From positions 62,001 through 126,000 of the forward strand of contig JAPUEB010000037.1 in NCBI GenBank assembly GCA_027492795.1: DNA of 64,000 bases, in the 5' to 3' direction. Within the stretch, counting starts at the first letter, position 1; the number at the start of each line of letters is the position of its first letter. Shown one piece after another: positions 22,483 through 48,313 of this stretch. The position numbers and the translations under genes are program-made. Below the pieces are notes generated by a model that worked only from the letters and a program-made list of their open reading frames with translations, ran no database searches and was not told where the DNA came from. Source of the stretch: Chryseobacterium sp. GTDB lineage: Bacteria > Bacteroidota > Bacteroidia > Flavobacteriales > Weeksellaceae.

Positions 22483-22512
22483 CTCACTCCAACCCTCTCC
22501 AAAGGAGAGGAG
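22483..22512. repeat. C-rich palindrome (CCTCTCCAAAGGAGAGG)
   Basis: A CTCC/GGAG hairpin repeat of the same type as the block read inside valS at 9411-9445. Confidence 0.7.
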
Positions 22513-22519
22513 TTGCTTG

Positions 22520-22717
22520 AAAATATTTAATGATTACAATGTACTATCTAATCGGAAATTAATTTTCTTCGTTTTCCCCAACCCTAAAGGGAGCGAAGAA
22601 AATCAATTTCCTCCCATGTCATCCTTAGGCTCTCGAAGGGAGAGTTGGGGAAAAGAAATTGATTTTCAATCATTAAATTTATATTAGGTAAATCCTTTAG
22701 TAATCATTAAATATTTT
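22520..22717. repeat. Nested palindromic element with 22-nt conserved cores
   Basis: The outer arms (22520-22537 and 22700-22717) are exact 18-bp inverses. Inside are two hairpins. The first, 22554-22611, has 18-bp arms with one mismatch around the core TTTTCCCCAACCCTAAAGGG plus AG. The second, 22598-22667, has exact 13-bp arms and an inverted, longer version of the core. They share the middle arm. The same design with different arm sequence occurs at 48165-48267. No coding potential was seen. Confidence 0.85.
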
Positions 22718-48134: not shown

Positions 48135-48164
48135 TAGATAATTAAGAACCTGTTTAAGATTTTA

Positions 48165-48267
48165 AAAATGAACCATAATTTGTTTACCCCAACCCTAAAA
48201 GGAGCAAATTAAGGTTCATTTTGAAGGAAATTTTCCACCCTTTAGGATTGGGGAAAAGAAAATTTCC
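48165..48267. repeat. Paired hairpins with inverted 22-nt cores
   Basis: The first hairpin (48165-48222) has 18-bp arms with one mismatch around TTTACCCCAACCCTAAAAGG plus AG. The second (48226-48267) has exact 10-bp arms around the inverted core. The arms differ from those at 22554-22667 while the core is kept. With the dyad at 48314 and the promoter at 48406 it accounts for the 343-bp gap 48127-48469. Confidence 0.85.
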
Positions 48268-48313
48268 GATACTGTATTTTATAAATAAAAAATTTAAACA
48301 TTCTCTAAATCTA

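Follow-up and report, generated by a model that had tools for sequence, protein, structure and literature searches.

The stretch of DNA analysed here (64,000 nucleotides, hereafter the window) contains two distant loci, each of which carries a pair of hairpins with the same 22-nt core in their loops and with the second core inverted relative to the first. A sequence-only reading of the window had pointed out these pairs, and we found the sequences at the positions that it gave. Locus 1 begins with the left arm of hairpin 1 (22554–22571, 18 nt; all coordinates refer to the + strand unless noted), which is 94% complementary to a middle arm at 22594–22611 (one mismatch). The core between them, TTTTCCCCAACCCTAAAGGGAG, lies in + orientation at 22572–22593. 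The second core (22611–22654, − strand) is interrupted and spans 44 nt, with its TTTA centre replaced by a piece of a TCATCCTTAGGCTCTCGAAGG-type repeat. The right arm of hairpin 2 (22655–22667, 13 nt) is 100% complementary to 22598–22610 and thus pairs within the middle arm that also serves as the right arm of hairpin 1. Since both hairpins depend on this common arm, they are mutually exclusive and only one of them can form at a time, which corrects the earlier description. The pair is enclosed by an exact 13-nt inverted repeat consisting of ATTTAATGATTAC (22525–22537), which is probably the left boundary of the element, and GTAATCATTAAAT (22700–22712), its right end. This element belongs to what we call arm family A, and ends resembling these flank other family-A copies as judged by eye.

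The repeat that takes the place of the TTTA centre within 22611–22654 has the form TCATCCTGAG...CGAAGGA. The same nesting of this repeat inside a core is present in a genome of a different genus (G094), and the fetched segments of the window's own genome contain 12 pattern matches to interrupted cores. Adjoining locus 1, positions 22487–22512 (CTCCAACCCTCTCCAAAGGAGAGGAG) are core-like with a longer inner palindrome.

The element at locus 2 (arm family B) is bounded by a left terminal inverted repeat, GAACCTGTTTAA (48146–48157), and a right one, TTTAAACATTCTC (48293–48305). Beside these repeats stands TAA on either side (48143–48145 and 48306–48308, no strand assigned), probably as a target-site duplication. 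The arms of hairpin 1 (48162–48182 and 48205–48225) are 21 nt long and 90% complementary with two mismatches, and flank a core in + orientation (48183–48204). Hairpin 2 consists of a 10-nt left arm (48226–48235), the inverted core (48236–48257, − strand) and a right arm (48258–48267) that is 100% complementary to the left one. The arm lengths first proposed were correct for the 18-nt arm with one mismatch at locus 1 and for the exact arms of 13 and 10 nt; the locus-2 stem had been given as 18 nt with one mismatch, which is contained in the 21-nt stem. Just before this locus, the segment 48060–48135 holds a 24-bp perfect inverted repeat, ACACTTTTGTCATTCCGTAGGAAT, that overlaps the end of the upstream open frame.

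A search of the window for the core with up to three mismatches returned three matches, compared to none in 100 shuffled sequences; the fourth copy is the interrupted one. As single-stranded DNA, the hairpins fold better than shuffled sequences in three of four cases (z = −5.1, −3.0 and −5.2). The 10-bp hairpin of locus 2 is not, with z = −1.0 and 31 of 200 shuffles that fold as well.

A fixed loop on free stems

The sequence-only reading had proposed a fixed core with compensating arms as a rule, and had suggested comparing arm complementarity with that of shuffled flanks. A search of the window's genome for CCCCAACCCTAAAGGG, which forms the 16-nt centre of the core, gave 97 hits at up to two mismatches (49 forward, 48 reverse); the reversed control gave two. 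Allowing three mismatches in the fetched segments of this genome gave 100 sites, 99 of which have complementary arms and pass the shuffling comparison, with at most one of 100 shuffles per site being as good. The arms begin exactly 4 nt before and 2 nt after the centre in 70 sites, which defines the 22-nt core, and within a base or two in most others. The single site without a stem (C7:113281, three mismatches) looks like a chance match. The rule therefore holds genome-wide, and so does the remark that this architecture is unlike that of an ordinary MITE. The further claim that the arms are specific to a locus could not be upheld: instead, they form families that are repeated at unrelated loci. 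In the window's genome, family A consists of neighbouring hairpins with a common middle arm and a core spacing of 36–37, families B and C have core spacings of 48–51 and 49–50, and one-off arms also occur.

This genome and its relatives together contain 377 distinct sites. A stem score of at least 7 is reached by 348 of these, as compared to 26 of 2000 shuffled flanks, and the 29 sites below this score include apparent chance matches in genes and eroded hairpins. To describe the arms, we left out 36 of the 348 sites with unusual junctions and kept one site per distinct 10-nt left arm, which reduced 312 sites with standard junctions to 123. Watson–Crick pairs occur at distances 1–10 from the core in 123, 121, 120, 116, 123, 112, 114, 107, 100 and 100 of these 123 sites (shuffled means: 33 to 85), and all four types of Watson–Crick pair are present at every stem position. 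The pairing percentages are inflated because the sites were preselected by stem score; the variety of pair types is unaffected by this selection. The arms have a GC content of 21%.

The core varies chiefly at positions −4, −1, 5, 6 and 17 and hardly elsewhere, and since the sites were found by similarity, only the differences between columns are informative. Pairing inside the core as a conserved feature was rejected, as no covariation was found at the nine position pairs tested. The same applies to pairing between the two cores of a pair, which show no covariation and have an identity of 14.58/16 (shuffled mean 14.53, maximum 14.67). Because covariation is absent at these nine position pairs and between paired cores, we interpret the loop (about TTTNCCCCRRCCCTAAAGGGWG) as the part that is recognised by its sequence, and the stem as the part that is recognised by its shape and whose sequence is free. 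Neighbouring cores within 100 nt are predominantly inverted (+− 138, −+ 27, −− 3, ++ 2; not deduplicated).

Tandem arrays of up to 18 core hairpins were seen at L111, L112, L114, L110 and L113 (genomes G144, G251, G109 and G094), together with a DUF559 gene at L111, L114, L110 and in the L113 region. At L274 (G109:C5:241690–242020), tandem core-like units lie inside an open frame that matches diaminopimelate epimerase, and add a repeated PTLKG stretch to the protein.

Distribution, empty sites and decay

To the extent that one neighbouring protein can tell, the nearest named relatives of the window's genome are Chryseobacterium (64–67% identity). We sampled 246 genomes of the family, which we take to be Weeksellaceae, and found the core with at most one mismatch in 59 of them. 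These belong to 11 of 33 genera and hold between 1 and 77 copies each. Several of the single hits have no stem and are apparent chance matches in genes.

One locus (L118) could be compared with empty sites, using 13 of 20 loci, from 13 genomes. It is filled in three genomes (G208, G144 and G228), holds different content in three others (G168, G307 and G219), and is short and devoid of arm sequence by eye in the remaining seven (G261, G147, G296, G301, G255, G221 and G234). The absence of arm sequence from these orthologous sites implies that the arms arrive with the element. A second locus was uninformative in this respect, with the gap filled by different repeats in different species. At yet another locus, seven orthologous copies differ from their majority sequence at 16 of 301 core letters and at 10 of 441 arm and spacer letters. 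Core and arms of these copies thus decay, so that resident cores are unprotected there, and conservation must reflect a demand made when the element spreads. The constraint on core and arms seems to act at propagation.

These observations bear on the two origins that the sequence-only reading had offered for the structure. Insertion with duplication and inversion of flanking DNA is contradicted, for the arm families, by arms that recur at many loci and by empty sites that lack them. As for template switching at the core, the arm mutations in the seven orthologous copies persist as uncorrected mismatches. With recurring arms, empty sites and uncorrected mutations, we can eliminate target-derived arms and template switching for the arm families.

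The hairpins might instead be kept by the host, as an RNA element, an mRNA stabiliser or a protein-binding site. In favour of this, both window loci are intergenic relative to open frames of at least 100 codons, and as RNA the two long hairpins form stable folds (z = −6.0 and −6.4). Within 300 nt of either locus (601 bases each), Rfam has nothing at gathering score and only sub-threshold matches, so that no known RNA family was recognised there. In addition, resident orthologous copies at the one locus studied show decay of the core, and its presence among relatives is patchy. We therefore consider a host function very unlikely.

Insertion-sequence-type ends on part of the elements

We compared the ends of 120 pairs (3 of 123 were dropped for short flanks). 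Ends resembling GAGCCTGTTTAAA within three mismatches stand on both sides of 22 pairs and on one side of another 14, compared to 0 and 2 with shuffled flanks, and TTA or TAA was seen by eye beside several copies. Window locus 2 has such IS-like ends with TAA on both sides. The same type of end with adjoining TTA or TAA is carried by four contig ends of the window's genome, and it looks as if the contigs break inside a multi-copy IS with GAGCCTGTTTAAA-type ends. At those four contig ends, no transposase was seen. The ends of arm family A, which includes window locus 1, differ from the GAGCCTGTTTAAA type. Some of the elements thus carry IS-type ends, and an IS transposase may be moving them or may have done so in the past; the IS connection is limited to these elements.

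One could extend this connection to all elements and regard them as plain MITEs of a resident IS, with the hairpin pair as cargo between GAGCCTGTTTAAA-type ends, a DDE transposase, a TTA/TAA duplication, and only a side role for the hairpins. The excess of ends over shuffled flanks, the apparent multi-copy element at the contig ends and the arrangement at locus 2 are all consistent with this model. However, 84 of the 120 pairs have no such ends at up to three mismatches (though decay may have obscured some), the ends of arm family A are of another kind, and a transposase gene with GAGCCTGTTTAAA-type ends was not seen. Moreover, a fixed loop with covarying stems is not a MITE feature and is not accounted for by a transposase that reads double-stranded DNA, and the model leaves the linkage to DUF559 (see below) unexplained. 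For the population as a whole it appears doubtful.

A DUF559 gene among the hairpins

A scan of core-bearing loci revealed a DUF559 gene adjoining core hairpins in eight genomes. We then searched 21 genomes with Pfam, all of them core-bearing and some chosen on account of a DUF559 gene noticed next to cores beforehand. This search gave 33 DUF559 matches, 30 with loci that were tested. Cores lie within about 1.5 kb at 11 of the 30 loci, and all 11 belong to one subfamily (DUF559-I; 10 open frames and 1 broken copy). The other DUF559 loci in these core-bearing genomes have no core within this distance (0/19).

A profile built from 12 members detected 16 DUF559-I genes in the 246 genomes (E ≤ 1e-45), one per genome, in five genera. 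At each of the 16, core hairpins (at most three mismatches, stem score at least 7) occur no more than 600 nt from the stop codon. The hairpins stand on the 5′ side just upstream of the start in 15 of the 16 genes, and on the 3′ side within 160 nt in 10; in G120 and G170 the TAA stop codon even lies inside a core, which in G170 is eroded. Four of the genes (G049, G114, G166 and G170) had been left out of the profile. Three of these are clearly more distant (181–190 bits), and their arms are entirely different around the same core with up to three changes. The core (at most one mismatch) is present in 15 of 16 genomes with the gene versus 44 of 230 without it (Fisher 1.4e-9, not corrected for relatedness), and the sixteenth genome with the gene, G114, has variant cores at its DUF559-I gene.

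The association is not complete. The same profile did not find a DUF559-I gene in the draft assembly of the window's genome, which is one of 13 among the 230 genomes without the gene that have at least 10 cores; others are G137 (34 cores) and G149 (38 cores). Either the hairpins of the window's genome are orphans, or the gene lies in an assembly gap.

The DUF559-I protein has about 130–140 residues and matches Pfam DUF559 in 12 of 12 cases, with weaker matches to restriction and homing endonuclease families. The best solved relatives are 3hrl, an endonuclease-like protein (E = 8e-25), and 3r3p, a mobile intron protein (E = 7e-5) which we take to be I-Bth0305I of the EDxHD family. Residues that are invariant in the 12-member alignment include E35, Q55, D64, E75, D77, H81 and D90. 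From these similarities, we predict that DUF559-I is a nuclease related to Vsr and EDxHD enzymes. The EDxHD family is treated in PMC3943268. The likeness of DUF559-I to EDxHD homing endonucleases and Vsr-like nucleases is one of sequence, by way of 3hrl and 3r3p; unlike homing endonucleases, it occurs without intron or intein, and with many short copies rather than one homing site. A Caulobacter DUF559 protein is reported to be responsible for an SOS response in vivo (PMC12907096). Among open-access papers, we recognised none that links DUF559 to repeats or describes this core.

Comparison with REP-type systems

REPINs are described (PMC3116915, PMC2817692) as inverted doublets with compensatory changes that cluster near one single-copy gene. 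The elements studied here resemble them in several respects: inverted hairpin doublets in many copies, clusters at one single-copy gene that is flanked by its own repeats, and compensatory changes in the stems. Based on this likeness, one may ask if the hairpins belong to a RAYT/REPIN system and are moved by a Y1 (HUH) transposase. No core lies within about 1.5 kb of any of the seven Y1_Tnp loci of the window's genome (L076–L082), nor of any of 30 such loci from ten genomes that carry the core. Several of the seven genes have other palindromic repeats on both sides by eye, for example GGGCTTTAGCCC at L079. On linkage we reject this origin, and consider movement by a RAYT extremely unlikely. 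The two systems also differ in their parts. The candidate nuclease here is DUF559 and not a Y1 HUH single-strand transposase, and a linked Y1 gene is missing. In REPINs the conserved part is a tag with a palindrome, whereas our elements conserve a 22-nt loop and leave the stem sequence free, and the core consensus contains no GTAG-type tag on either strand.

Conserved loops on variable stems are also a feature of replication-origin hairpins, which carry a conserved nick site in the loop, with one Rep (HUH) origin per replicon. Our elements differ from these by their many dispersed copies and by a different nuclease.

A third comparison concerns the CGTC-tagged REPs, short palindromic repeats that are reported also from Bacteroidetes, Neisseria, Azospirillum lipoferum and S. 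meliloti (PMC3733652). They are marked by a CGTC tag, a stem that opens with A/T pairs, and a CCA tail. Di Nocera and co-workers, who named these repeats, could not assign a dedicated transposase to them, and the main text of their paper does not contain 'DUF'. The subfamily-I core consensus has no CGTC tag. As far as we are aware, the spread of short palindromic repeats is explained only for REP/RAYT.

Proposed mode of spread

Taken together, each site is most likely a short non-autonomous mobile element that normally consists of two adjacent hairpins with the same 22-nt core in their loops, the second inverted, and its partner is most likely the single-copy DUF559-subfamily nuclease whose gene sits among the same hairpins in relatives. 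We assign this reading a probability of about 0.6. The core hairpins would form when the DNA is single-stranded or extruded, and the DUF559 nuclease may recognise the loop and cut. Repair or replication of the cut end could then copy the hairpin pair elsewhere, and the resident copies would decay afterwards. The core, its covarying stems, the inverted pairing and the gene association are observed, as are empty sites and decay at one locus each; binding and cutting of the hairpin by the nuclease, spread as a result of cutting, and the way in which a copy enters a new site are inferred. By analogy, the system looks like one that works in the manner of REPIN/RAYT with an unrelated nuclease, rather than a member of that class. 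The weak point of this reading is that the window's genome and some other core-rich genomes lack a DUF559-I gene, and that IS-type ends explain part of the movement.

The hairpin family and its association with DUF559 suggest that small repeats can spread by a route that has not been described before. If this is true, DUF559, as yet an unexplained protein family, would gain a testable job, and there would be a second, independent case, on an unrelated fold, in which a single-copy nuclease is accompanied by many short repeats. The rule of a fixed loop on free stems also provides a clean assay: swap the stem and keep the loop, or the reverse.

Other DUF559 genes and their repeats

A second subfamily, DUF559-II, is represented by 11 loci including one in the window's genome, and adjoins a different repeat. 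This repeat has the form CCCCTC..GAGGGGTGG, a variable stretch that is often self-complementary by eye, and GACGGGGTGG (in short, CCCCTC..GAGGGG/GACGGGGTGG). Its GACGGGGTG part occurs within about 450 nt in 11 of 11 loci and on both sides in 9, as compared to 147 (either side) and 10 (both sides) of 20,000 random segments. Neither the 16 subfamily-I loci nor the window contain this part. After reading PMC3733652, we also compared the DUF559-II loci post hoc with the CGTC-tagged REPs of that paper. A CGTC-stem-loop-stem unit, strictly defined, lies beside the gene in 5 of 11 DUF559-II loci (L363, L365, L366, L359 and L371), 3 of them with a CCA tail, versus 31 and 11 of 4000 random segment pairs; the other 6 of the 11 fall outside the definition. 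None of the 16 subfamily-I loci and none of 16 plasmid-borne loci (see below) contain this unit.

DUF559 is also found within leucyl-tRNA synthetase (leuS), before the editing domain and in the same open frame, in three of three frames (L354 on G000:C35, from the window's own genome, and L356 and L361 from relatives). The insert of the window's genome comprises 206 codons and has an exact 22-nt inverted repeat at its ends; that of one relative has 164 codons and weaker ends, and the third frame was not delimited by the motif pattern. The two synthetase motifs that bound the insert are presumably close together elsewhere.

These genes help to judge if the linkage between DUF559 and hairpins could be passive or regulatory, such that the DUF559-I gene merely tolerates the hairpins or is regulated by them, and something else moves them. 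In 15 of the 16 genomes a hairpin stands at a similar position shortly before the gene, as one would expect of a regulatory site, and in six g20 genomes apparently the same gene lies downstream of DUF559-I (by eye). Yet dispersed cores accompany the presence of the gene, a second DUF559 subfamily has its own repeat, and the leuS insert has inverted ends. We judge a bystander or regulated gene to be improbable, and retain the DUF559 nuclease as the likely partner of the hairpins.

Plasmid-borne DUF559 genes from other phyla were included by fetching 17 of 25 hits, of which 16 were tested; L395 was left out because its DUF559 belongs to a 4.9-kb frame. For inverted repeats that span the gene, a score of at least 16 is reached in 4 of 16 cases versus 0 of 128 control segments, and one of at least 14 in 5 of 16 versus 2 of 128. 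The other 11 of the 16 have no flanking repeat at a score of 14 or more in this test, which depends on window placement: the Azospirillum lipoferum gene scores 22 with windows at the gene ends and 12.5 with shifted windows. Flanking repeats at plasmid-borne DUF559 genes are therefore a lead and not a rule.

With slightly less than even confidence, we suggest that DUF559 nucleases could join the DDE and HUH transposases as a third class of enzymes that spread repeats. Every subfamily would have its own hairpin repeat, read a short sequence on a stem of free sequence, and spread this repeat through the genome. Candidate examples are the 22-nt core of subfamily I, the subfamily-II repeat that partly resembles CGTC-tagged REPs, the inverted ends in leuS, and the palindromes at some DUF559 genes of Cyanobacteria and Alphaproteobacteria. 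Two plasmid-borne DUF559 genes, L392 from a Pseudanabaena plasmid and L404 from a Sinorhizobium meliloti plasmid, lie between inverted repeats, which are 40 nt long in the former and about 70 nt in the latter.
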